This document shows positions 25,041 to 38,208 of a stretch of DNA of 64,000 nucleotides, piece after piece. The notes under the pieces are model-generated. The model saw only the letters and a list, made by a program, of their open reading frames with translations. It did not search any database and was not told the origin of the DNA. Within the stretch, counting starts at the first letter, position 1. Each line of letters opens with the position of its first letter. Origin of the DNA: Streptomyces sp. NBC_00820 (lineage in GTDB: Bacteria > Actinomycetota > Actinomycetes > Streptomycetales > Streptomycetaceae); contig NZ_CP108882.1 of assembly GCF_036347055.1 (NCBI RefSeq), positions 5,684,501-5,748,500 on the forward strand. Reading direction: 5' to 3'. Position numbers and translations under genes: made by a program.

Positions 25041-26636
25041 ATGACCGTTTTGGAAGAGACGAAGGGTGAGCCGACCGGCGAGCCGGCGGACGCGCGCGGA
25101 CGGGTCGCCGAGCTGCACGAGATCCGTGCGCAGGCCGTGGCAGGTCCCAGCGAGAAGGCGACCCAGGCGCAGCACGCCAAGGGCAAGCTGACGGCCCGCG
25201 AGCGCATCGAGCTGCTCCTGGACCCGGGTTCCTTCCAGGAGGTCGAGCAGCTGCGCCGGCACCGGGCGACCGGTTTCGGCCTCGAGGCGAAGAAGCCGTA
25301 CAGCGACGGTGTCATCACCGGCTGGGGCACGGTGGAGGGCCGCACGGTCTTCGTCTACGCCCACGACTTCCGGATCTTCGGCGGCGCGCTGGGCGAGGCC
25401 CACGCCACCAAGATCCACAAGATCATGGACATGGCCATCGCGGCCGGCGCGCCCCTGGTCTCCCTGAACGACGGCGCGGGCGCCCGTATCCAGGAGGGCG
25501 TCTCCGCCCTCGCCGGTTACGGCGGCATCTTCCAGCGCAACACCAAGGCCTCGGGTGTCATCCCGCAGATCTCCGTGATGCTCGGCCCCTGCGCGGGCGG
25601 TGCGGCCTACAGCCCCGCCCTGACGGACTTCGTCTTCATGGTCCGCGAGACCTCGCAGATGTTCATCACCGGTCCGGACGTCGTCAAGGCGGTCACCGGC
25701 GAGGAGATCACCCAGAACGGCCTCGGCGGCGCCGACGTGCACGCCGAGACCTCGGGTGTGTGCCACTTCGCCTACGACGACGAGGAGACGTGCATCGCCG
25801 AGGTGCGCTACCTCCTGTCGCTGCTGCCGCAGAACAACCGCGAGAACCCGCCCCGGGCGGAGTCCTCCGACCCGGTGGACCGCCGCAGCGACGTCCTGCT
25901 CGACCTGGTCCCGGCCGACGGCAACCGCCCGTACGACATGGCCAAGGTCATCGAGGAGATCGTCGACGACGGCGAGTACGTCGAGGTCCATGAGCGCTGG
26001 GCCCGCAACATCATCTGCGCGATGGCCCGCCTGGACGGTCAGGTCGTCGGCATCATCGCCAACCAGCCCCAGGTCCTCGCCGGCGTACTGGACATCGAGG
26101 CGAGCGAAAAAGCTGCGCGCTTTGTCCAGATGTGTGACGCTTTCAATATCCCGATCGTCACCTTCCTGGACGTCCCCGGGTTCCTTCCCGGTGTCGACCA
26201 GGAGCACGGCGGAATCATCCGTCACGGCGCGAAGCTCCTCTACGCCTACTGCAACGCGACCGTGCCGAGGATCTCGCTGATCCTGCGCAAGGCCTACGGC
26301 GGTGCCTACATCGTCATGGACAGCCAGTCCATCGGCGCCGACCTGACCTACGCCTGGCCGACGAACGAGATCGCCGTCATGGGTGCGGAAGGTGCGGCCA
26401 ACGTCATCTTCCGCCGTCAGATCGCCGAGGCCGAGGACCCCGAGGCGATGCGGCAGAAGATGGTCAAGGAGTACAAGGCCGAGCTCATGCACCCGTACTA
26501 CGCGGCGGAGCGCGGCCTGGTGGACGACGTGATCGACCCCGCCGAGACCCGCGAGGTCCTGATCAAGTCCCTGTCGATGCTGCAGACGAAGCACGCCGAC
26601 CTGCCCTCGCGCAAGCACGGCAACCCCCCGCAGTAA
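25041..26636 (+). CDS. accB: acyl-CoA carboxylase carboxyltransferase (beta) subunit
   Basis: 531 residues, a carboxyltransferase of the biotin-dependent acyl-CoA carboxylase family. It transfers CO2 from carboxybiotin (on an AccA-type subunit, not in this window) to acetyl-CoA or propionyl-CoA, giving malonyl- or methylmalonyl-CoA for fatty acid and polyketide synthesis. Crotonase-like N and C halves are seen: LNDGAGARIQEGV with GPCAGGAAYSPAL, and DVPGFLPGVDQEHGGIIRHGAK with RKAYGGAYIVM. The specificity residue is Ile424, the AccB type; PccB enzymes have Asp there (known from the S. coelicolor enzymes). Followed by accE 58 bases downstream. The 154 bases upstream, after the lyase gene, show no clear terminator. 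Confidence 0.94.
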   Translation: MTVLEETKGEPTGEPADARGRVAELHEIRAQAVAGPSEKATQAQHAKGKLTARERIELLLDPGSFQEVEQLRRHRATGFGLEAKKPYSDGVITGWGTVEGRTVFVYAHDFRIFGGALGEAHATKIHKIMDMAIAAGAPLVSLNDGAGARIQEGVSALAGYGGIFQRNTKASGVIPQISVMLGPCAGGAAYSPALTDFVFMVRETSQMFITGPDVVKAVTGEEITQNGLGGADVHAETSGVCHFAYDDEETCIAEVRYLLSLLPQNNRENPPRAESSDPVDRRSDVLLDLVPADGNRPYDMAKVIEEIVDDGEYVEVHERWARNIICAMARLDGQVVGIIANQPQVLAGVLDIEASEKAARFVQMCDAFNIPIVTFLDVPGFLPGVDQEHGGIIRHGAKLLYAYCNATVPRISLILRKAYGGAYIVMDSQSIGADLTYAWPTNEIAVMGAEGAANVIFRRQIAEAEDPEAMRQKMVKEYKAELMHPYYAAERGLVDDVIDPAETREVLIKSLSMLQTKHADLPSRKHGNPPQ

Positions 26637-27062: not shown

Positions 27063-27644
27063 CTACCGCAGGCGGGCCATGAGTGCGTGTTCCACCAGGG
27101 TGATGAGTGCGCTCTTGGCGTCCGCGCGGTGGCGGGCGTCCGTGGTGATGATGGGGGTGTCGGGGCCGATCTGGAGTGCCTCGCGGACCTCGTCGGGCTG
27201 GTACGGCTGGCTGCCGTCGAAGCCGTTGAGGGCGATGACGAAGGGGAGGCCCGAGTTCTCGAAGTAGTCGACCGCGGGGAAGCAGTCGGCGAGGCGTCGG
27301 GTGTCGACCAGGACGATGGCACCGATGGCGCCGCGGACGAGGTCGTCCCACATGAACCAGAAGCGGTCCTGTCCGGGTGTACCGAAGAGGTACAGGATCA
27401 GGTCCTGGTCCAGGGTGATGCGGCCGAAGTCCATGGCGACCGTGGTGGTCTTCTTGTCCCCGGTGTGGGTGAGGTCGTCGATGCCCGCCGAAGCGGACGT
27501 CATGACGGCCTCGGTACGCAGCGGGTTGATCTCCGAGACCGCCCCGACGAACGTGGTTTTGCCCACGCCGAAGCCGCCCGCCACCACGATCTTCGCGGAC
27601 GTGGTGGAGCGGGAAGGCCCTCCGCTAGAGCTTGCGAAGTCCAC
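27063..27644 (-). CDS. cvnD: CvnD, Ras-like GTPase of conservon (first copy)
   Basis: 193 residues. Small GTPase fold with P-loop GGFGVGKT (23-30), a switch II-type FGTPGQDRF and an NGFD in place of NKxD. It is the G-protein component of a conservon, in which CvnA (membrane sensor), CvnB, CvnC and CvnD form a complex compared with eukaryotic GPCR systems. The ATG lies within the end of cvnC (20-base overlap). From residue 16 to the C-terminus it is identical to the second cvnD at 32359-32934, and the DNA is identical over 535 bases (27065-27599). Only the first 15 codons differ. Confidence 0.95.
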   Translation of the reverse strand: MDFASSSGGPSRSTTSAKIVVAGGFGVGKTTFVGAVSEINPLRTEAVMTSASAGIDDLTHTGDKKTTTVAMDFGRITLDQDLILYLFGTPGQDRFWFMWDDLVRGAIGAIVLVDTRRLADCFPAVDYFENSGLPFVIALNGFDGSQPYQPDEVREALQIGPDTPIITTDARHRADAKSALITLVEHALMARLR

Positions 27645-28194
27645 TGAGCACCCTTTCGAGCAAAGTCACGGCTGGCTGGCCACCGGCGTTCTCGTCGCCG
27701 CCGGGCTGATGGATGGCGACCAGGCCCGCCTCCGCCAAGTCGGCGACGAGGATCCTGGCCACGCCGAGGGGGATCGTGAGCAGGGCCGAGACCTCGGCCA
27801 CCGACTTGATCTCCCGGCACAGGTTGCAGATCCGCTGATGCTCGGGCAGCTGGCCCTGCATCTGATGCGGCTGCGCGGTGGTGTGCACCAGTGCCTCGAT
27901 GGCGAGCTGGTAGCGCGGGCGAGTCCGGCCGCCGGTCATGGCGTACGGACGCACCAAGGGGTTGCTGGCTCCCGCCGGAGCGGGCGTCGGCTCACGGCGC
28001 TGCGGCTGCACAGGCTGGATCCGAGGTGCCGCCGGCTGGTCGTACGGCGAGGGGCCGGGGCCCTGCGGTGCGTACGGCTGCTGGTGGCCAGGGGCGGAGG
28101 GGAAGTTGTACGGGTTCGCCGAGCCGTCGTTCTGACCCTGAGCAGGGCCGTACGACCAATTGCCCGAAGACGAACCGCCTGGGGGTGTTGCCAC
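27625..28194 (-). CDS. cvnC: CvnC, DUF742 protein (first copy)
   Basis: 189 residues, GTG start with GGAGGAG 4 bases upstream. The C-terminal half is the DUF742 domain, a winged-helix-like fold: LVRPYAMTGGRTRPRYQLAIEALVHTT, then EHQRICNLCREIKSVAEVSALL and GVARILVADLAEAGLV. The N-terminal 80 residues are Pro/Gln/Tyr-rich and presumably disordered; the second cvnC lacks most of this extension. The stop overlaps the cvnD start. In studied conservons CvnC binds the other soluble partners; DNA binding is suggested by the fold only. Confidence 0.93.
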   Translation of the reverse strand: MATPPGGSSSGNWSYGPAQGQNDGSANPYNFPSAPGHQQPYAPQGPGPSPYDQPAAPRIQPVQPQRREPTPAPAGASNPLVRPYAMTGGRTRPRYQLAIEALVHTTAQPHQMQGQLPEHQRICNLCREIKSVAEVSALLTIPLGVARILVADLAEAGLVAIHQPGGDENAGGQPAVTLLERVLSGLRKL

Positions 28195-28288
28195 TTTCTC
28201 CTCCTCCGACTGTGCCGGGCACCCATCGCTGTGGAGCCGCGTCCCGAAACCTTACGGCCCAGGGACGCGAACACGCACCGTTCGATTG

Positions 28289-28711
28289 CTAGTTGAGAAG
28301 GCTTCCCTGGAGCTCCGCACGGAGATCCGGGGTGAGGACCGTGCCCGCGCGGTCCACCAGAAGGGCCATCTCGTACCCAATGAGGCCGATGTCCGCTTCC
28401 GGGTGGGCCAGAACCGCGAGCGCGGAACCGTCGGATACGGACATGAGGAAGAGGAATCCTCGCTCCATCTCCACAACCGTCTGGTTCACGGCGCCTCCCT
28501 CGAAGATCCGAGAGGCGCCCGCCGTCAGCGACGTCAGACCGGATGCGACGGCCGCGAGCTGGTCGGCGCGGTCGCGGGGGAAGCCTTCGGACATCGCCAG
28601 AAGGAGTCCGTCGGCGGAGACCACCACCGTGTGGGACACCCCCGGGGTGTTGTCCACGAAGTTGGTGATCAACCAGTTCAGGTTCTGTGCCGCCTGGCTC
28701 ATCGGGCTCAC
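28289..28711 (-). CDS. cvnB: CvnB, roadblock/LC7 protein (first copy)
   Basis: 140 residues, a roadblock/LC7 fold (NLNWLITNFVDNTPGVSHTVVVSADGLLLAMSEG, GASRIFEGGAVNQTVVEMERGFLFLMSVSDGSALAVLA). GTG at 28711 is preferred, with AGGAG 7 bases upstream and starting 1 base after the cvnA stop; an internal ATG at 28702 is possible. Roadblock proteins often act on small GTPases, so CvnB probably modulates CvnD and links it to CvnA. The second cvnB (33425-33847) is nearly the same protein with scattered substitutions, unlike the exactly identical cvnD pair. A gap of about 95 bases separates it from cvnC. Confidence 0.94.
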   Translation of the reverse strand: MSPMSQAAQNLNWLITNFVDNTPGVSHTVVVSADGLLLAMSEGFPRDRADQLAAVASGLTSLTAGASRIFEGGAVNQTVVEMERGFLFLMSVSDGSALAVLAHPEADIGLIGYEMALLVDRAGTVLTPDLRAELQGSLLN

Positions 28712-28712
28712 A

Positions 28713-31700
28713 CTAACGCTCCTGGTTGTAGGTGCTGTCAGGGCCGAAGCCCTGGCCGTTCGTTTCACTGCCTGCGTTGCGTCCGCGCTGGACACCTCGA
28801 CGCAGGTTGCTCAGCCTGCCCCGGACGTCCTCCGGGGCACGGGAGACCTGGGGGCCCCCCTGAGGGGTGCTCTCGGCGGTGCCCTCGACCAGGTTGGCCT
28901 TGGGTACCCGCCGCGGCAGACCGGAGGAGGTGACCCCGCCCGCCTTGGGCTTCCGCAGCTGCGAGGCCTGCTGCCAGCGCTCGTCGTTGGCCGAACGCCA
29001 GTCGCTGTCACCGTCGTTGCCCGGGGTGTTGCCCGGTGCGGGAGCCGGCGTCTCCGGCCGCACAGGTGCCGCACCGTTCGAGCCGCTCACGCCGTTGGAA
29101 CCGCTCCCCAGCGAACCGCGGCGGGGCAACCCGGAGTCGGTCATCCGGTGGGGGGCGGAAGGGGACGGTCCCGGTCGGTCGAAGCCTACGCGGTTCCGCT
29201 CGTTCACGTCACCGGCCTGCGACGATTCCGTTTCCGGAGCGTACTGGGCCGGGTGGCCGTTCTGGAAACCGGCCTCGTTCTGGAAGCCGTTCTGCTGCGG
29301 CCAGTCGTCCTGCGCCGGCTCCGCGAACGCGGGGTCGGGGTAGCCGCCGCCGTTGGCCTGGAAGCCGTCGTTCTGCGGCAGCCCGCCGTTCGGAGCGAAG
29401 TACTGGTCGTCGTAGGGCTTTTCGTACGACCCTTCGTACGACGCCTGACCCTGCTCCTGGTACGGCTGCTGCGGCTGCTCCTGGTACGCCTGCTGCCCGT
29501 CGAAGGCACCGGGCTGCGCCGGCTGCGCGGTGTACCCGGTGGTGCTGCCGTCGTAGCCGGCCCGCTGCGCGTCGAACTCGTCCGGGTACGCCTGCTGCGG
29601 GTTCTCGGACTGCTCGTGACCCGGGGACCCCAGGGCGGCACGGCGCTCTTCACGCAGCAGCGAGCGGCCGACCGGGTCCAGGTCACGGATGTCGTCGGGG
29701 ACCTCGTAGCGGCTGTCGTCGAAGCCCAGTTCGGCGGCGGTACGCAGCGGAGGCTGCTGCTGCTGTTGCTGCTGCTGGCCGAAGTTCTCACCCTGGAACT
29801 TCTGTTCCGGGATGATCTGGGAGACGGTGAACTCCTCGCGGTCCAGCGCCACGTCGCCGCCACCACCGTGCGTGATCGCGTCCGGCAGCATGACCAGGGA
29901 GGTCGTACCGGCCTGCTCGCCCGAGGGGCGCAGCTGGACGCGGATGCCGTGCCGGTCGGACAGCCGGCCGACCACGAACAGGCCCATGCGCTGGGAGATC
30001 GCGGCGTCCACGGTCGGCGGGTTGGCCAGCTTGTGGTTGATGTCCGCGAAGTCCTCGGCCGTGAGGCCGATGCCCTTGTCGTGGATCTCGACCATCACGC
30101 GGCCGTCGGGGAGACGGGTCGCGGTGACGCGGACCTTGGTCTGCGGGGAGGAGAACGTGGTGGCGTTCTCCAGCAGCTCGGCCAGCAGGTGCACGAGGTC
30201 GGTCACGGCACGGCCGTGGATCTCGGCGTCGGGGACACCGGAGAGCTCGACGCGCTCGTACTGCTCCACCTCGGAGGAGGCGGCGCGCAGGACGTCGACC
30301 AGCGGGACCGGCTGGTCCCAGCGGCGGCCCGGCTCCTCGCCGGCGAGGACCAGGAGGTTCTCGCCGTTGCGGCGCATACGGGTCGCGAGGTGGTCCAGCT
30401 TGAAGAGGTTCTCCAGCTGGTCCGGGTCGGCCTCGTTGTTCTCCAGGTCGGTGATCAGGGTCAGCTGGCCCTCGATCAGGGACTGGTTGCGGCGCGACAG
30501 GTTGGTGAAGATCGCGTTGATGTTGCCTCGCAGCAGGGCCTGCTCGGCGGCGAGACGGACCGCCTCGCGGTGGACCTGGTCGAAGGCGCGGGCGACCTCG
30601 CCGATCTCGTCCTTGGTGTGGATCGGGATCGGGGTCACCCGGGTGTCGACCCGGCCCGGGTCGGTACGGGAGAGCTGGTCCACCAGCATCGGCAGACGCT
30701 GCTCGGCGATGCCGAAGGCGGCGTTGCGCAGCTGGCGCATCGAGCGGCTCATCTGGCGGGCCACGGTGCCGGCCAGGAAGAAGGCGAGGAGCAGGGCGAG
30801 CACGACGGCCGCACCGGTGATGAACGCCGAGGTCTTGGCGTCGTCGGCGATGCCGGAGGCCTCGGTCACGGCCTTGTTGGCCATGTCCGTCTCGATCGAG
30901 CTGTACGCGTCGAACTTGAGGGTGTTGACCGCCCACCAGTTGACCGGGGTGATGCCCTGCGTGACCGCGAGCTGCTGGCGCTCCGTGGGGTCCGTGGTCT
31001 TCAGCGAGGCGAGCGCGATCACCATCGCCTGCGGGTTGGACGGCGGCGGAACGAAGTTCGGGTCCTTGGCCTTGGCCTGCCTGGCCAGCGCCGCGGCCTT
31101 GGCCTCGACGTCCTTCTTCTCCGCTTCGAGCCGGTCCGCGTCGGCCTGGGTGCCACCGCCGAGGTACTCCTCGGAGGCGATGCCCTCCAGGTACGCGTAG
31201 GAGGCGAGGGCCGTGCGCTGGCTGGTCAGACCAGGCTGGTCCGGGCCCGGCTTGATCAGCATGTGCATACCGATCGAGCGTTCCAGGGACAGCGCGGCCT
31301 TGGTCAGCGAGATGGCGTAGACGGTGCGGCCGTAGGAGGTGATGTTGCCCGTGCCCAGACCCAGCTCGTTGGCGAACTCCATGAGCGGGTGGGCGATCTT
31401 GACGTAGCCCTCCTCGGTCTGCACACCGGGGAGATTCGTCGTGTACGCCAGCTGGCGCAGCGTCCGCAGCTGGGGCTCCGTGTCACCGAACAGCTTCAGT
31501 CGGCGGTCCAGGCCGGCGGTGTGCGGCGCGTCCTGCGCGACCCGGTGGAAGTCCGCGGCGGCCTTGTCGGTCCTGGCGCGGATACCGATGACCGACTTCT
31601 TGTCCTCGGCGGTCTCCAGCTTGCCCTTCAGCAGGTACTGAGCGGTCATGTCCCGCTCGTTGTACAGCTGGTTGGCATAGGTAAGAGAGGCCTGAACCAG

Positions 31701-31979
31701 GCGCGCGGTCTTCTCCGCGTCCTGCGCGTCCTGCCAGGTGTCGATCGAGCTCTTCACCTGGAAGCCGCCCATGACCAGGCCGACCACCACGGGTATGAGC
31801 AGGATCGCGTTCAGGCGGGTCGGCACTCTCCAGTTGCGCGGGGAGAAGCGGCCACCGCTGGAAGCGGGGGGTTCCGCCGGCTCCGAACCGGGTACAACCG
31901 GACTGGGCGCCGCAGCGCGCGGCGGCGGGGTGAAGTTGCCCCGTGCCGACGGCTCGGGACCGTTCTTGCTTCGCCTCAC
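28713..31979 (-). CDS. cvnA: CvnA, nitrate/nitrite-sensor-like membrane kinase-homologue (first copy)
   Basis: 1088 residues from GTG 31979 (MRRSKNGPEPSARGNFTPPPR, the usual start of such proteins); the frame is open to 32297 but without a good site. Two transmembrane helices (about 56-74 and 385-406) frame an extracellular NIT-type helical sensor. A HAMP segment, a dimerisation helix with LDHLATRMRRNGENLL and a GHKL ATPase follow: N-box LLENAT (about 601-606), HDKGIGL (633-639) and MGLFVVGRL. The last 370 residues are Gln/Gly/Pro/Tyr-rich and low complexity. It is the receptor part of the conservon; whether it phosphorylates anything is unsettled. First gene of a four-gene operon (A-B-C-D). 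Confidence 0.94.
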   Translation of the reverse strand: MRRSKNGPEPSARGNFTPPPRAAAPSPVVPGSEPAEPPASSGGRFSPRNWRVPTRLNAILLIPVVVGLVMGGFQVKSSIDTWQDAQDAEKTARLVQASLTYANQLYNERDMTAQYLLKGKLETAEDKKSVIGIRARTDKAAADFHRVAQDAPHTAGLDRRLKLFGDTEPQLRTLRQLAYTTNLPGVQTEEGYVKIAHPLMEFANELGLGTGNITSYGRTVYAISLTKAALSLERSIGMHMLIKPGPDQPGLTSQRTALASYAYLEGIASEEYLGGGTQADADRLEAEKKDVEAKAAALARQAKAKDPNFVPPPSNPQAMVIALASLKTTDPTERQQLAVTQGITPVNWWAVNTLKFDAYSSIETDMANKAVTEASGIADDAKTSAFITGAAVVLALLLAFFLAGTVARQMSRSMRQLRNAAFGIAEQRLPMLVDQLSRTDPGRVDTRVTPIPIHTKDEIGEVARAFDQVHREAVRLAAEQALLRGNINAIFTNLSRRNQSLIEGQLTLITDLENNEADPDQLENLFKLDHLATRMRRNGENLLVLAGEEPGRRWDQPVPLVDVLRAASSEVEQYERVELSGVPDAEIHGRAVTDLVHLLAELLENATTFSSPQTKVRVTATRLPDGRVMVEIHDKGIGLTAEDFADINHKLANPPTVDAAISQRMGLFVVGRLSDRHGIRVQLRPSGEQAGTTSLVMLPDAITHGGGGDVALDREEFTVSQIIPEQKFQGENFGQQQQQQQQPPLRTAAELGFDDSRYEVPDDIRDLDPVGRSLLREERRAALGSPGHEQSENPQQAYPDEFDAQRAGYDGSTTGYTAQPAQPGAFDGQQAYQEQPQQPYQEQGQASYEGSYEKPYDDQYFAPNGGLPQNDGFQANGGGYPDPAFAEPAQDDWPQQNGFQNEAGFQNGHPAQYAPETESSQAGDVNERNRVGFDRPGPSPSAPHRMTDSGLPRRGSLGSGSNGVSGSNGAAPVRPETPAPAPGNTPGNDGDSDWRSANDERWQQASQLRKPKAGGVTSSGLPRRVPKANLVEGTAESTPQGGPQVSRAPEDVRGRLSNLRRGVQRGRNAGSETNGQGFGPDSTYNQER

Positions 31980-32280
31980 TCGACCAACAACCTCTCGGCG
32001 GGTCGGCACCTTCGACGTGCCGCAGTCTCTCAGAGCCCGTTCTGGCATCGACGACTCAGTACGTCGTTGACCAATGGGCGGTTCAGGCATTCCAGCACGT
32101 GGACCAGCGCAGTTCCAAACAGTGGAGAGCGCGAGGTCGTGCCCTTGTAAGTCCCAGATAAAACGGTCATAAAGAGCGAGCCACGCCAAATGGCGGGGCG
32201 TTTGTGCGCGGACAGGCACCACGCGACCGCGTCGCGTGGTGATCCTCGCCCGATTCCTCTGCCGAACTGTTATGAACACC

Positions 32281-32314
32281 GGAGCCGACCGTGTCAAAGG
32301 CCACAGTCGGCTCC
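32281..32314 (-). terminator. hairpin between the two conservon operons
   Basis: GGAGCCGAC (32281-32289) pairs with GTCGGCTCC (32306-32314), 16-base loop, 45 bases past the second cvnD stop. The 380-base gap 31980-32358 otherwise holds only the upstream region of the first cvnA, including an AT-richer stretch around 32150-32175 that may carry its promoter. Confidence 0.55.
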
Positions 32315-32358
32315 AGGTTCTCTACGGCAACTGCCTTACGGCACGTCCCACTTGACTG

Positions 32359-32934
32359 TCACCGCAGGCGGGCCATGAGTGCGTGTTCCACCAGGGTGAT
32401 GAGTGCGCTCTTGGCGTCCGCGCGGTGGCGGGCGTCCGTGGTGATGATGGGGGTGTCGGGGCCGATCTGGAGTGCCTCGCGGACCTCGTCGGGCTGGTAC
32501 GGCTGGCTGCCGTCGAAGCCGTTGAGGGCGATGACGAAGGGGAGGCCCGAGTTCTCGAAGTAGTCGACCGCGGGGAAGCAGTCGGCGAGGCGTCGGGTGT
32601 CGACCAGGACGATGGCACCGATGGCGCCGCGGACGAGGTCGTCCCACATGAACCAGAAGCGGTCCTGTCCGGGTGTACCGAAGAGGTACAGGATCAGGTC
32701 CTGGTCCAGGGTGATGCGGCCGAAGTCCATGGCGACCGTGGTGGTCTTCTTGTCCCCGGTGTGGGTGAGGTCGTCGATGCCCGCCGAAGCGGACGTCATG
32801 ACGGCCTCGGTACGCAGCGGGTTGATCTCCGAGACCGCCCCGACGAACGTGGTTTTGCCCACGCCGAAGCCGCCCGCCACCACGATCTTCGCGGAGGTGG
32901 TGGTCCGGCCCGAGTCAGAGCTTGCGAAGTCCAC
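32359..32934 (-). CDS. cvnD: CvnD, Ras-like GTPase of conservon (second copy)
   Basis: 191 residues. Identical in protein and DNA to the first cvnD over its C-terminal 176 codons (32361-32895 matches 27065-27599 base for base). Only the N-terminal MDFASSDSGRTT differs, as does the stop codon (TGA here, TAG there). P-loop GGFGVGKT and FGTPGQDRF are the same, so both conservons must signal through a GTPase with identical switch and effector surfaces. It overlaps the end of cvnC by 20 bases. Confidence 0.95.
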   Translation of the reverse strand: MDFASSDSGRTTTSAKIVVAGGFGVGKTTFVGAVSEINPLRTEAVMTSASAGIDDLTHTGDKKTTTVAMDFGRITLDQDLILYLFGTPGQDRFWFMWDDLVRGAIGAIVLVDTRRLADCFPAVDYFENSGLPFVIALNGFDGSQPYQPDEVREALQIGPDTPIITTDARHRADAKSALITLVEHALMARLR

Positions 32935-33313
32935 TGAGCACCCTTTCGAGCAGCGTCACATCCGGAGCGCCGCCGTTGTTCTCGTCGCCACCAGGCTGGT
33001 GGATGGCGACCAGGCCGGCCTCGGCGAGGTCGGCCACCAGGATCCGGGCCACGCCGAGCGGCATGGTCAGCAGCGCGGAGACTTCCGCGACCGACTTGAC
33101 CTCGCGGCACAGGTGGCAGATGCGCTGATGCTCCGGGAGCATCCCGATGAGCGCTGCCGGGTCGGCCGTGGTGCTGATCAGCGCCTCGATGGCGAGCTGA
33201 TAGCGCGGCCGGGTCCGGCCGCCGGTCATCGCGTACGGACGTACCAGCGGCTGGTCGCCCTCATCGCCGTACGGTTCCGCGTACGGATCATGAGAGGCGG
33301 TGGGCGGGGTCAT
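32915..33313 (-). CDS. cvnC: CvnC, DUF742 protein (second copy)
   Basis: 132 residues. DUF742 domain with QPLVRPYAMTGGRTRPRYQL, PEHQRICHLCREVKSVAEVS and GVARILVADLAEAGLV. It is shorter than the first copy because the Pro/Gln-rich N-terminal extension is almost absent (about 20 residues before the domain). ATG at 33313 with an AGGATTC-type site. The stop lies inside cvnD. The 110-base gap to cvnB upstream (33314-33424) is G/T-rich on the + strand and shows no separate gene. Confidence 0.93.
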   Translation of the reverse strand: MTPPTASHDPYAEPYGDEGDQPLVRPYAMTGGRTRPRYQLAIEALISTTADPAALIGMLPEHQRICHLCREVKSVAEVSALLTMPLGVARILVADLAEAGLVAIHQPGGDENNGGAPDVTLLERVLSGLRKL

Positions 33314-33424: not shown

Positions 33425-33847
33425 TCAGTGGAGCAGACTGCCTTGGAGCTCGGCGCGCAGATCCGGCGTGAGCACCGCACCCGCACGGTCGACGAGCAGC
33501 GCCATCTCGTAGCCGACGAGACCGATGTCGCACTCGGGGTGGGCCAGGACCGCGAGGGACGACCCGTCCGAGACGGACATGAGGAAGAGAAAGCCGCGCT
33601 CCATCTCGACGACGGTCTGCGCCACACTGCCGCCCTCGAAGATCCGGGAGGCCCCGGCCGTCAACGAGGTCAGCCCGGACGCGACCGCCGCCAGCTGGTC
33701 GGCGCGGTCCCGCGGGAAGCCTTCGGACATCGCCAGCAGGAGGCCGTCGGCGGAGACCACCACCGTGTGCGACACCCCAGGGGTGTTGTCCACGAAGTTG
33801 GTGATCAACCAGTTCAGGTTCTGTGCCGCCTGGCTCATCGGACTCAA
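33425..33847 (-). CDS. cvnB: CvnB, roadblock/LC7 protein (second copy)
   Basis: 140 residues. The start is a TTG at 33847, immediately after the cvnA TAG, with AGGAG 7 bases upstream, the same arrangement as the GTG start of the first copy (both give MSPMSQAAQNLNWLI). Roadblock fold as in the paralogue; differences are scattered (GGSVAQ for GGAVNQ, HPECDIGLVG for HPEADIGLIG). It presumably regulates or anchors the CvnD GTPase. Confidence 0.93.
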   Translation of the reverse strand: MSPMSQAAQNLNWLITNFVDNTPGVSHTVVVSADGLLLAMSEGFPRDRADQLAAVASGLTSLTAGASRIFEGGSVAQTVVEMERGFLFLMSVSDGSSLAVLAHPECDIGLVGYEMALLVDRAGAVLTPDLRAELQGSLLH

Positions 33848-36800
33848 CTAACGCTCCTGCTGGTGAGTGGGGCTCGGGAAGCTGCCGGTCTGGCCGCTGC
33901 CGGCCTGACGGCCCTGAGCGATGCCCCGACGGAGATTGGTCAGACGGCCGCGTACGTCATCGGGCGCACGCGAGACCTGCGGACCGCTCTGTTGCTGCTG
34001 TTGCTGCTGTGCCTGGCCCGGGACGAGGTTCGCCTTGGGCACCCGGCGCGGAAGGCCGGAGGTCGTGATGCCGCCCGCCGCGGGCTGCCTGACGCGCTCC
34101 GCCTGCCGGACGAGTTCGTCGTTCGGAGAGGTGCGCCAGGAGCCGGTGGGGGAGGCGGAACGCTGCGGAGCGGGCGCGGATGCGGCCGCCTGCGGCGTCT
34201 GCTGCTGCGGAGCCGGAGCGGCCGCCTGCTGCTGCTCGGGCGGGGCGCCGTGGAACCAGTTGGTCTCCAGCGTGTCGTACAGCGGGGTACGGCCGTCGCC
34301 CTGGCTCGGAGCCGGCGGCAGCGCGTATCCGTCGCCCGGGCGGCCCTGGGTGTCGGGACGCTGCGGGGCGGCCGGGCGCTGGGCGCCGAAGTCGCCGTGA
34401 CCGCCCTGCTGCGGCCGCTCGTACTGGCCGGTGTGCGCGGGGTTCTGGGGCTGGTTCTGAGCCTGGCGGCCGGGCAGCGCGTGCTGTCCCGTGGAGCCGG
34501 CGTCGTAACCGTTGCCGTTGCCGTTGCCGTTGCCGTACGCCTGCGGAGTCGCGTACTGGCCCGTGTGGTGCTGCTGCTCCTGCGGGGCCGCGTACTGCCC
34601 GGTGTGGTGCTGCTGCTCCTGCGGAGCCGCGTACTGGCCGGTGTGCTGCTGGCCCTGCGCGGCGCCGTACTGGCCCGTGTGGTGCTGCTGCTCCTGCGGG
34701 GCCGCGTACTGGCCCGTGTGCTGCTGCTGGCCCTGGTGTCCGGGCGCCGGCGTGCCGAAGAGGTCGGGGCGCTGGAACTGGCCGCTGTTGTCCTGCTGGT
34801 CGAACTGACCGTTGCCCTGCTGGGTGCCGGGACGCTGGAACTGGCCGGTGTCCTGGGGGCTGTTGTAGCCGTTCAGGTCCTGCCGGGCGAACTCGCCCGT
34901 GGCGGCCTGGTCCTGCCCGGAACCGATGCGGGGCATCTCCGCGGTCGCGCCCGGACCCTGGCGGTCGTCGACGCGCGGCATGCGCCCGGTGCGCGCCGGG
35001 GCCTGCTCGTCATGGCCGCGCGGGGCGTCCAGCGAGGCACGCGAGACCGGGGCCTGGGCGTTGTCGCCCCACTCCGGGGTGCGCGACTGCGGGGTACCAC
35101 CGGGCAGTTCGGCCCGCGGGCCGCCACGCGGCGGCAGCTGGGGCTGACGGCTCTGGTCGGCGGCGCCACCGCGCTGCGCGGCCGGGCCGCGGCCGCCGAA
35201 GGCGTCCTGCTGCGACCCACCGGGGTTCGCGGCCTGCATGCCCTGCGAGGCACCCGGCGCCTGACCGGCGCCGAAACCGTTCGTACCGGCGGGACCGGAG
35301 CGGCCCTGCTGGGGCGCGGCGGGACCCTGCTGGTTACGGGCACCGCCCGGACCACCCTGCCGGCCGCCCTGGCCGGTGCCGGGCAGCGCGGCCCGGGGAC
35401 CCTGGCCCGCACCGACCTGGCCGCGGGGACCGGGACCGGAACCGAGCAGTCCGCCGCCGGCGGGCGCACCGCCGAGGGTGCCGCCCGGGGCGCCGCCCTT
35501 ACCGCCGTTGTTGCGGCGGGCGGCGGCGGCACCGGCCGCGGCCTGCGCGGCGGCGGGGCCACCGCCGGACCCGGGCATGCCGGGCTTGCCCGGAGCGGGT
35601 TTCTTGCCGCCCTGGGCCACGTCGACGGGCAGCATGACCAGCGCGGTCGTACCACCGGAGTCGGACGGGCGCAGCTGGATGCGGATGCCGTGGCGCTGCG
35701 ACAGACGACCGACCACGAACAGACCCATGCGGCGGGAGACCGACACGTCCACGGTGGGCGGCGCGGCGAGGCGCTCGTTGATCGCGGCGAGGTCCTCGGG
35801 GGACAGACCGATACCGGTGTCGTGGATCTCGATCAGCACGCGGCCGTCGGGCAGCGCGTGACCGGTGACCTTGACCTTGGTCTGCGGCGAGGAGAAGGAG
35901 GTGGCGTTCTCGAGCAGCTCGGCGAGGAGGTGCACGAGGTCGTTGACCACGCGGCCGGCGACCTCGGTGGTCGGCACGGAGGCCAGCTCGATGCGCTCGT
36001 ACTGCTCCACCTCGGACGCGGCGGCGCGGAGCACGTCGACCAGCGGGACCGGACGGGTCCAGCGGCGGCCGGGCTCTTCACCCGCGAGGACGAGGAGGTT
36101 CTCACCGTTACGGCGCATACGCGTCGCGAGGTGGTCGAGCTTGAAGAGCGAGGACAGCTGGTCCGGGTCGGCCTCGCGGGACTCCAGTTCGGAGATGAGC
36201 GAGAGCTGACGCTGGATGAGGCCCTGGGAACGGCGCGAGAGGTTGGTGAACATCGCGTTGACGTTGCCCCGCAGCAGGGCCTGCTCGGCGGCGAGACGGA
36301 CCGCCTCGCGGTGCACGTCGTCGAAGGCCGAGGCCACCTGGCCGATCTCGTCCCGGGAGTGCACACCGACCGACTCCACGGACGTGTCGACGTCCTGCGG
36401 GTCGGACTCGGACAGCTGCTTGACCAGCTCGGGCAGACGGTCCTGGGCGACCTTGGTGGCCGTCTCCTGGAGCCGGCGCAGCGAGCGGATCATGGAGCGC
36501 GCCACGACGAAGGCGCCGACCAGCGAGACGCCCAGCACCAGCAGGATCAGCGCACCGGAGATGATGGCTTCCTGCTCGGAGGTGGCCTTCAGCTCGCGGG
36601 CCTTCTGCTCCATCTGCTCCAGCAGCTGGCGCTCGATGTTCTTCATCTGCTGGATCTTGCTGGTGCTGTCGTCCACCCAGTCCAGGTACGAGCGGTCCGG
36701 CTGACTGGCGAGGCCGTTGCGGTCGTTGAGGACGCGCTGCGCGTACTTGTCCGCGGACTTGATCGTCGGGTTGGTCCCGTCGATCGGCTGGAGGGTCTGC

Positions 36801-37765
36801 TCGGCGTTCTGGGCGGTGTAGATCTGCCGGAAGATGTTGAGTTCGGAGCCCTCGCTGTCGTACGCCGACTGGCCGTACAGACGGTCGTTCTCGGAGAGCT
36901 TGCCGGTGGTGGTGTTGTTGGCGGGCAGGGCCGCGGCGATGACGGCGCGCTGTACCGACGCGTATTCCTTGGCCGTGGAGAAGGCCGACAGGGCGCGGGT
37001 GCGCTGGATCATCTCGGGGTTGCTGGACGCCTCGGCCATGTCCTGGGACAGGCCGATCAGCTGGGTGATCAGCCGGTGGTAAGCCTCGACCGTCTGCGTC
37101 GAGTTCTGCGGCGAGGAGTAGGCGTCGTGGCGGATCCGCTGGAGGTTGTCCAGCTGACCGACCAGGCCGACCAGGGTGTCGCGGACACCCTGGAGGTTGC
37201 CGTCCTTGCTGGCCGCGTCGATGCCCTCGGCGGCCGACTGGAAGTTGTCCTTGGCGCGGTCGGTCTTCTGCCGCAGGCCCTTGATGGAGTAGTTGTTCGC
37301 CGTCAGGCCGTGGCTCAAGGGGCCGGCCGACTGGTCGCGCTCGTCCTGCAGCGCGGCGGCCAGCTCGGTGGCCTGCGTGGTCATCTCCGTCAGCAGCTGC
37401 ATGTTGTCGAGCTGCTGAATGTCGTTCATGGAGTCGCCGATACGCAGCGCACCCAGTGAAGTGGCCGCGACCACGGGGAGCGCCAGCAGCGACACCAGGC
37501 GCGTGGAGATGCGCCAGTTGCGCAGTGCCATGCGTGAACCCGGGCCGGGCACCCCCTTGGCGGCACTCGTGGCCGACGGTGGACTCACCGGCCCGGAGGC
37601 ACCCGCCGTGGCGGATATGCCGGCGCGCCCGGAGCGTTCGCCGCCGTCACCGGACGGGGTCGGACCCGGGCTCTGGGCGTGCTGGGGCGAGGAGCCGCGG
37701 TCGGTCCCGCCGTGCGGCTCCGGCTCTGCCGAAGCGCTGCCATCCCTCTTGAAACGTCCCTGCAC
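33848..37765 (-). CDS. cvnA: CvnA, membrane sensor with very long Gln/Gly-rich tail (second copy)
   Basis: 1305 residues from GTG 37765 (GAGG 11 bases upstream). About 85 disordered N-terminal residues, a transmembrane helix (90-108), an extracellular NIT-like helical domain, a second transmembrane helix (400-422), HAMP, the LDHLATRMRRNGENLL helix and a GHKL ATPase domain (N-box LLENAT about 616-622) are seen. A tail of nearly 600 residues follows, rich in Gly, Gln, Pro and Ala. It contains several HTGQYAAPQEQQ repeats and an NGNGNG run. The short conserved blocks LPRRVPKANLVPG and APDDVRGRLTNLRRGI close the tail, as in the first CvnA. Receptor of the second conservon, with clearly different sensor sequence, so a different signal. 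Confidence 0.94.
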   Translation of the reverse strand: MQGRFKRDGSASAEPEPHGGTDRGSSPQHAQSPGPTPSGDGGERSGRAGISATAGASGPVSPPSATSAAKGVPGPGSRMALRNWRISTRLVSLLALPVVAATSLGALRIGDSMNDIQQLDNMQLLTEMTTQATELAAALQDERDQSAGPLSHGLTANNYSIKGLRQKTDRAKDNFQSAAEGIDAASKDGNLQGVRDTLVGLVGQLDNLQRIRHDAYSSPQNSTQTVEAYHRLITQLIGLSQDMAEASSNPEMIQRTRALSAFSTAKEYASVQRAVIAAALPANNTTTGKLSENDRLYGQSAYDSEGSELNIFRQIYTAQNAEQTLQPIDGTNPTIKSADKYAQRVLNDRNGLASQPDRSYLDWVDDSTSKIQQMKNIERQLLEQMEQKARELKATSEQEAIISGALILLVLGVSLVGAFVVARSMIRSLRRLQETATKVAQDRLPELVKQLSESDPQDVDTSVESVGVHSRDEIGQVASAFDDVHREAVRLAAEQALLRGNVNAMFTNLSRRSQGLIQRQLSLISELESREADPDQLSSLFKLDHLATRMRRNGENLLVLAGEEPGRRWTRPVPLVDVLRAAASEVEQYERIELASVPTTEVAGRVVNDLVHLLAELLENATSFSSPQTKVKVTGHALPDGRVLIEIHDTGIGLSPEDLAAINERLAAPPTVDVSVSRRMGLFVVGRLSQRHGIRIQLRPSDSGGTTALVMLPVDVAQGGKKPAPGKPGMPGSGGGPAAAQAAAGAAAARRNNGGKGGAPGGTLGGAPAGGGLLGSGPGPRGQVGAGQGPRAALPGTGQGGRQGGPGGARNQQGPAAPQQGRSGPAGTNGFGAGQAPGASQGMQAANPGGSQQDAFGGRGPAAQRGGAADQSRQPQLPPRGGPRAELPGGTPQSRTPEWGDNAQAPVSRASLDAPRGHDEQAPARTGRMPRVDDRQGPGATAEMPRIGSGQDQAATGEFARQDLNGYNSPQDTGQFQRPGTQQGNGQFDQQDNSGQFQRPDLFGTPAPGHQGQQQHTGQYAAPQEQQHHTGQYGAAQGQQHTGQYAAPQEQQHHTGQYAAPQEQQHHTGQYATPQAYGNGNGNGNGYDAGSTGQHALPGRQAQNQPQNPAHTGQYERPQQGGHGDFGAQRPAAPQRPDTQGRPGDGYALPPAPSQGDGRTPLYDTLETNWFHGAPPEQQQAAAPAPQQQTPQAAASAPAPQRSASPTGSWRTSPNDELVRQAERVRQPAAGGITTSGLPRRVPKANLVPGQAQQQQQQQSGPQVSRAPDDVRGRLTNLRRGIAQGRQAGSGQTGSFPSPTHQQER
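34551..34735 (-). repeat. in-frame repeats coding HTGQYAAPQEQQ in CvnA tail
   Basis: Four to five copies of a 36-39 bp unit encode HTGQYAAPQEQQ and shorter variants (HTGQYGAAQGQQ). Next to them, 34510-34534 is a GTTGCC hexanucleotide run coding NGNGNGNG. All remain in frame, so these are expandable protein repeats, not CRISPR. Confidence 0.88.
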
Positions 37766-38208
37766 TAGCGTCGCAACCTCTGGACCAGGCGCCCCTCCGC
37801 GTGAACGAAGGGACACGGTGTCGGCGTCGTGGAGAGCGCCCTGAATACGCCCACCAAATGCTCTTGAGTGGCCGGCGCAGCTTCCCCCAGCCCGCCGCCA
37901 CTCGGCGCTGCGTTGCGCCCCCTGCGCGCCGGCTCGATGCCGCGGCGGTCCGAGGAATTCCAGCACAGTGCCGGATCTCCAACAAGGGCCGTGGCCCGAG
38001 CTGTGCTGTCTGTCACAGGCGGTGAGGGGGGTGTAACCGAACGTAGAAGCTTTTCCGGTCGAAAAGGGGGCGTTCCTCTGCGAGTCGCCGCGCGGTGACA
38101 GGTGTCCCAGTCGCCATGATCAGGAGCGGAATGATGGCTTCAGTGGCCCAATGTCCGTTTCGTTGCGGAGGGTTGCGAGTCGGAATTGACCGGTTTGTTC
38201 GCGCGGGC

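Follow-up and report, generated by a model that had tools for sequence, protein, structure and literature searches.

What keeps one gene of a four-gene operon identical in two neighbouring copies when other genes of the same operons have drifted apart? The stretch of 64,000 nucleotides analysed here (the window) raises this question, as it carries two conservons in tandem whose cvnD genes share a long identical block. Both operons lie on the minus strand; the downstream, low-coordinate operon is called copy 1 and the upstream operon copy 2. On this strand the order is A2-B2-C2-D2-A1-B1-C1-D1, head to tail and in the same direction, with the following features:

27063..27644, minus strand: cvnD copy 1, small GTPase of 193 aa, GTG start overlapping cvnC (open reading frame; Pfam PF03029, E 1.2e-34)
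27065..27599, minus strand: identical block, copy 1 (downstream operon), exact maximal match to 32361-32895
27600..27644, minus strand: codons 1-15 of cvnD copy 1, not part of the block; VDFASS common to both copies, then a differing linker (alignment)
27627..27662, minus strand: 36 nt at the cvnC stop/cvnD start, identical to 32917-32952 (alignment)
27625..28194, minus strand: cvnC copy 1, DUF742 (PF05331, E 2.2e-40)
28289..28702, minus strand: cvnB copy 1, roadblock, start set at the ATG of MSQAAQ by inspection (PF03259, E 1.3e-25 for the longer open reading frame 28289-28795)
28713..32297 (limits of the open reading frame), minus strand: cvnA copy 1, sensor kinase-like with NIT and HATPase_c, HAMP below its cut-off (Pfam)
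32359..32934, minus strand: cvnD copy 2, 191 aa, GTG start overlapping cvnC (open reading frame; PF03029, E 1.2e-34)
32361..32895, minus strand: identical block, copy 2 (upstream operon), exact maximal match to 27065-27599
32896..32934, minus strand: codons 1-13 of cvnD copy 2, not part of the block; VDFASS common to both copies, then a differing linker (alignment)
32915..33313, minus strand: cvnC copy 2, DUF742 (PF05331, E 5e-39)
33425..33838, minus strand: cvnB copy 2, roadblock, start set at the ATG of MSQAAQ by inspection (PF03259, E 4.4e-27 for the open reading frame 33425-33847)
33848..37966 (limits of the open reading frame), minus strand: cvnA copy 2, sensor kinase-like with NIT, HAMP and HATPase_c (Pfam)

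Each operon thus encodes the full set of a conservon according to Pfam, namely a CvnA with an ATPase domain, a roadblock CvnB, a DUF742 CvnC and a Ras-like GTPase CvnD, four proteins that would together make up a GTP-regulated complex, and in gene order and domains both resemble the conservons of S. coelicolor (cvn1-cvn13). PF03029 scores above its cut-off in both CvnD proteins; weaker matches of CvnD copy 1 are TIGR00231 small_GTP, below its cut-off, and a Rab-18 match with E 0.005. Two further observations were made around the pair. A carboxyl transferase gene (PF01039) at 25041-26636 on the plus strand converges on it, and tandem 39-nt repeats at 34501-34774 encode a Gln/His-rich repeat in the C-terminal tail of CvnA copy 2.

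Direct comparison confirmed the base-for-base identity that the initial annotation had reported for the two cvnD stretches: 27065-27599 and 32361-32895 agree at 535 of 535 bases, and the match is maximal, with no extension at either end. It had also described the neighbouring genes as diverged, and cvnC indeed differs at 65 of 333 and cvnB at 61 of 411 aligned positions (15-20%). In the same register without gaps, identity in the flanks of the block drops to chance level, and a gapped alignment recovers a further identical run of 36 nt, 27627-27662 and 32917-32952, at the cvnC stop and cvnD start. Read in gene direction, both copies consist of these shared 36 nt, a short linker of unequal length and the 535-bp block. 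The 36-nt identity lies outside the block and is perhaps kept for translational coupling.

The abrupt ends ascribed to the block hold for the stop codon, where the identity ends with the T and the copies part at the second base (TAG in one, TGA in the other). The start was said to fall inside codon 16; it is the first base of codon 16 in the 193-codon copy 1 and of codon 14 in the 191-codon copy 2, and the adjoining mismatch falls on the third position of the preceding codon. The borders are a length-variable linker on one side and unrelated downstream sequence on the other. Since borders vary among genomes and fall where homology thins, no special device is required to explain the abrupt ends in the window.

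Chance does not explain the identity. At the median divergence of the cvnD pair in our sample, a simple calculation with independent sites gives a probability of about 2e-17 for zero differences in 528 nt. Ten other cvnD-like matches in the window genome, which is a single contig of 8,106,388 bases, are at most 79% identical to the block. When 10 of the 12 cvnD matches of this genome were compared over 480 nt without gaps, different genes agreed at 44-82% of positions, the identical pair apart; one gene that stayed at 44-46% throughout is probably out of register.

For a comparison across Streptomyces we used the best 80 loci of 286 relatives, ranked by the copy-1 sensor, and 76 more; 60 of these 156 fetched loci were chosen for one cvnD resembling the block of the window (top of a similarity-ranked list), and the same species may occur twice across the two locus sets. 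Including the window, 157 loci were available, from which 22 without a cvnD core pair, four of odd lengths and two exact duplicates were removed, leaving 129 distinct loci (124 usable for cvnB). The cvnD core comprises 528 nt. Loci L167-L183 were fetched later and stand outside the 129; ten of these 17 gave a comparable cvnD pair. Synonymous differences between orthologues were taken from 400 random pairs each.

The two cvnD cores of a genome differ along a continuum from 0 to 73 of 528 nt (median 37, 129 loci including the window). The window is the sole pair with zero differences, and ten other loci have 2-6, so that 11 of 129 have six or fewer; all lie in contigs of more than 5 Mb. The ten pairs fetched later differ by 2, 3, 7, 28, 28, 40, 48, 70, 74 and 80 of 528. 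Tracts are patchy, with identical runs beside diverged stretches in many genomes, and a weighted permutation marked the longest identical run as longer than expected in 41 of 128 loci (P<=0.01), or in 64 of 128 with P<=0.05. Besides the window, all pairs converted over nearly the full core retain at least two differences, mostly within the last 12 nt, and in three of the four such loci displayed the linker is the same in both copies (L096, L103 and L109; not L117). One locus stands somewhat apart: in L098 (G012, a single 9.0-Mb contig) the cvnD that precedes cvnA copy 1 reaches no more than 70% identity to the query, and within the fetched stretch nothing ahead of that cvnD matched CvnB or CvnC at the score used. 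Its upstream operon looks diverged or rearranged.

Synonymous sites separate cvnD from its neighbours in the operon. The median paralogue difference of cvnD is 0.218, compared to 0.310 (copy 1) and 0.333 (copy 2) between orthologues. For cvnB the paralogues differ by 0.451 versus 0.368 and 0.411 for the orthologues, and for cvnC by 0.459 versus 0.300 and 0.366. At these sites the paralogue is nearer than any sampled orthologue for cvnD in 36 of 129 genomes (the window and 35 others), for cvnB in 6 of 124 and for cvnC in 1 of 129; counted by raw differences, the cvnD figure is 29 of 129. FastTree trees give the same picture, with same-genome sisters in 35 of 129 genomes for cvnD (29 with support of at least 0.9), 6 of 124 for cvnB (three with such support) and none of 129 for cvnC. 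The cvnC tree splits by copy without a single misplaced sequence in the 129 genomes (branch support 0.76); by this split and by the spread of the sensors through the genus, the pair is older than the species compared. The two cvnD copies thus cluster within the genome in part of the sample, which was the pattern that the initial annotation had proposed to look for, and are not sisters in the other 94 of 129 genomes. The recent gene conversion suggested there is well supported by the contrast between cvnD (35 and 36 of 129 by tree and synonymous sites) and cvnC (none and one).

Non-synonymous differences are 0.108 between CvnC paralogues versus 0.024-0.026 between orthologues, 0.034 versus 0.014-0.019 for CvnB and 0.020 versus 0.018-0.022 for CvnD. 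As a side observation, cvnB is strongly homogenised in L123, L166, L136 and L142 (4, 8, 18 and 18 of 390 nt differ), and in these four loci cvnC, which lies between cvnB and cvnD, is not.

Judged by these comparisons, the locus is to be read as a case of concerted evolution that recurs, is mainly confined to cvnD and proceeds by gene conversion within the chromosome, and not as one of selection at the DNA level or of recent duplication. The history that we consider very probable is that of two old tandem conservons with recurrent exchange of cvnD, and of a recent conversion over the whole shared core in the window strain. The two operons would repeatedly swap cvnD by homologous recombination without crossover, presumably of the RecA type, and in the window strain a recent tract would have covered the whole shared cvnD core. 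Such a tract would stop where homology stops, at the linker after the cvnC/cvnD overlap on one side and at the unrelated downstream sequence on the other. The nearest orthologue of the window cvnD is 30 nt away, while for the cvnC copies of the window there are orthologues with synonymous differences of just 0.07 and 0.10; the conversion is therefore of recent date relative to the separation from the closest species sampled.

In the window one copy is overwritten and the flanks are kept, as each copy has its own linker and flanks; which copy was the donor is read from majority sites. Among the 25 neighbours of the window by similarity of the CvnA1 sensor, no site is strictly diagnostic at 70% in both copies, so that the direction rests on 25 sites at which the majorities of the two copies differ. 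The window is copy-1-like at 19 of these, copy-2-like at four and like neither at two. The log-likelihood is -128.8 with copy 1 as donor and -152.0 for the reverse. Downstream copy 1 thus probably overwrote upstream copy 2, the recipient retaining the 13 codons at its start. Among 11 further genomes whose copies differ by 2-10 nt, the copy-2 cvnD is likewise nearer to the copy 1 of the neighbours than to their copy 2 in ten (the exception is L160), a tally slightly inflated by the somewhat faster divergence of copy 2 between species (0.333 vs 0.310). A conversion bias from copy 1 to copy 2 across genomes is likely, if short of proven.

Why cvnD is the gene that is homogenised is a separate matter. 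Homogenisation may itself be selected, either since a second, slightly different GTPase would interfere in the complex of the partner system or since dosage is needed; we regard this as a serious possibility, at a little under an even chance. It would agree with what stays specific to a copy. No column fully separates the copies in CvnD (0 of 176) or CvnB (0 of 130; 124-129 genomes), and four do so in CvnC, at positions 35, 37, 51 and 63 of a core of 85 residues (129 genomes); at three of these the residue of each copy is fixed in 90% or more. Some copy bias is present in CvnD all the same, for instance at residue 176, which is Lys in 43 of 129 copy-2 and 0 of 129 copy-1 proteins. In each of the 129 genomes the copies differ at 12 or more sites in the middle part of the cvnC core and again at 12 or more in its 3' part. 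This includes L096 and L123, whose copies agree over the initial 75 nt of that core and are only 2 and 5 nt apart in cvnD. Altogether, four genomes have these first 75 nt identical between copies and 30-42 differences in the remainder; in two of the four the same stretch equals the copy-1 orthologue of another genome, which makes it weak evidence alone. Interference and balance were proposed as drivers of homogenisation in a passage of a published survey (PMC6053082).

Sequence similarity alone could, however, set the rate. The frequency of conversion, cvnD before cvnB before cvnC, follows similarity, so that a homology-driven and a selection-driven reading both fit, and the higher conservation of the CvnD protein would be enough to maintain strong homology and so promote conversion, with no need for a functional reason. 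Also, the CvnB paralogues, with their non-synonymous difference above that of the orthologues, are not simply one protein.

With moderate confidence, then, CvnD and largely CvnB appear exchangeable between the systems, and CvnA and CvnC copy-specific. More weakly, the swap may be tolerated because CvnD, and largely CvnB too, serve both systems, with CvnC and the CvnA sensor holding system identity, and a GTPase pool shared by two receptors is plausible. A study of Ras-like GTPases in prokaryotes mentions, in one passage, adjacent duplicated conservons, one of them having lost its GTPase gene (PMC4316618), which fits one GTPase serving two systems. Going further, the locus could encode one branched circuit, in which the receptors CvnA1 and CvnA2 and copy-specific CvnC proteins share a single pool of interchangeable CvnD (and nearly of CvnB) that is kept by conversion under selection against interference, and in which the never-homogenising CvnC residues mark the distinction between branches. 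We consider this circuit possible and rather unlikely.

An artefact would be a quite different explanation of the identity: reads of two similar cvnD copies could have been merged by the assembler and the consensus written twice. Drafts do have difficulties here. At least one cvnD copy was cut, gapped, fragmented or absent in 20 of the best 80 loci of 286 relatives, and several of the broken loci lie in contigs of about 5 kb that span from one cvnD to the other. Polishing could also have erased a few true differences in the window; the other near-full converters all keep some. The window genome, however, is one 8.1-Mb contig, and the ten loci with 2-6 differences in contigs above 5 Mb show similar pairs. 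Merging is not expected to make two copies identical if they were as far apart as the cvnC pair, and breakage is in itself the expected effect of near-identical copies, because such repeats disrupt short-read assembly. The collapsed repeat that the initial annotation had itself put forward as a possible refutation is thus very unlikely. Draft assemblies are therefore poor evidence on exactness, and samples of drafts probably under-count converters; a caution for practical use is that Streptomyces drafts are often broken at the cvnD repeat.

A tandem duplication in the recent past of the window's lineage, either of the whole operon or of just cvnD, would account for the tandem layout and is hardly tenable otherwise: the copy-1 sensor of cvnA was found in 290 and the copy-2 sensor in 296 of 296 genomes, cvnC splits by copy with none misplaced in 129 genomes, and both cvnD genes of the window follow a cvnC of their own and have a linker of their own. 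Purifying selection acting on cvnD as DNA or RNA, a nucleotide-level form of the strong selection for one shared GTPase raised earlier, can be dismissed in spite of the very conserved protein (paralogue non-synonymous difference 0.020), since orthologous cvnD genes differ at about 31-33% of synonymous sites between species (0.31-0.33 in random species pairs; the nearest orthologues of the window are about 0.20 away from it) and the sequence itself is thus free to change.

Duplicate GTPase genes held nearly identical by conversion are known from tufA and tufB, which encode EF-Tu, as stated in a passage of PMC1780047. The cvnD pair resembles them in this respect and differs in that tufA/tufB encode one translation factor, whereas cvnD is mainly the sole homogenised gene of a four-gene signalling operon and its homogenisation is incomplete across the genus. 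Wang and Chen (2018) list 26 long-lasting concertedly evolving prokaryotic genes (PMC6053082). As described in the main text of that survey, paralogues are recurrently closer than orthologues, synonymous sites included, which is also found for cvnD; unlike those genes, cvnD is homogenised within a pair of operons that are diverged elsewhere. This main text contains neither "Streptomyces" nor "GTPase", and cvnD might yet appear in the gene tables or supplements. Our literature searches found no report of cvnD homogenisation in conservons ("conservon" with "gene conversion"; cvnD1, cvnD2 and cvnA1), and a search for concerted evolution in Streptomyces returned nothing on conservons by title. The cvnD pair is a newly documented case of a known phenomenon, with a testable implication for signalling.

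S. coelicolor has 13 conservons, between which cross talk has been proposed and is hard to dissect, and interactions of the Cvn9 proteins have been reported, both according to parts of PMC8510531. A natural, repeated swap of the GTPase with much else kept apart hints at which parts are exchangeable, and it names the separating CvnC positions as candidates. In S. coelicolor, CvnA2 is SCO5540 and CvnA1 is SCO5544, as given in a passage of PMC9739842, a spacing that fits the tandem of the window. If gene order is conserved, cvn1 of S. coelicolor (SCO5544) would correspond to the upstream operon of the window, copy 2.

A crossover between the cvnD copies should delete one cvnA-B-C set. In the genome G139 (L178) the copy-1 sensor of cvnA is absent, and a single cvnD of this type was found, behind cvnC copy 2. 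Its downstream flank is the one that follows cvnD copy 1 in relatives, and the gene is chimeric compared with six relatives, with 3 of 3 copy-2-like sites in the 5' part and 8 of 9 copy-1-like sites in the 3' part. We do not claim G139 as the product of such a deletion, as a collapsed draft assembly explains it equally. All six of 296 genomes without the copy-1 sensor are drafts of 60-1300 contigs. In three of the five others (L198-L200) the contig with cvnA copy 2 begins within cvnD, shortly beyond the cvnC end, or at that end, and in L201 and L202 this contig is broken elsewhere.
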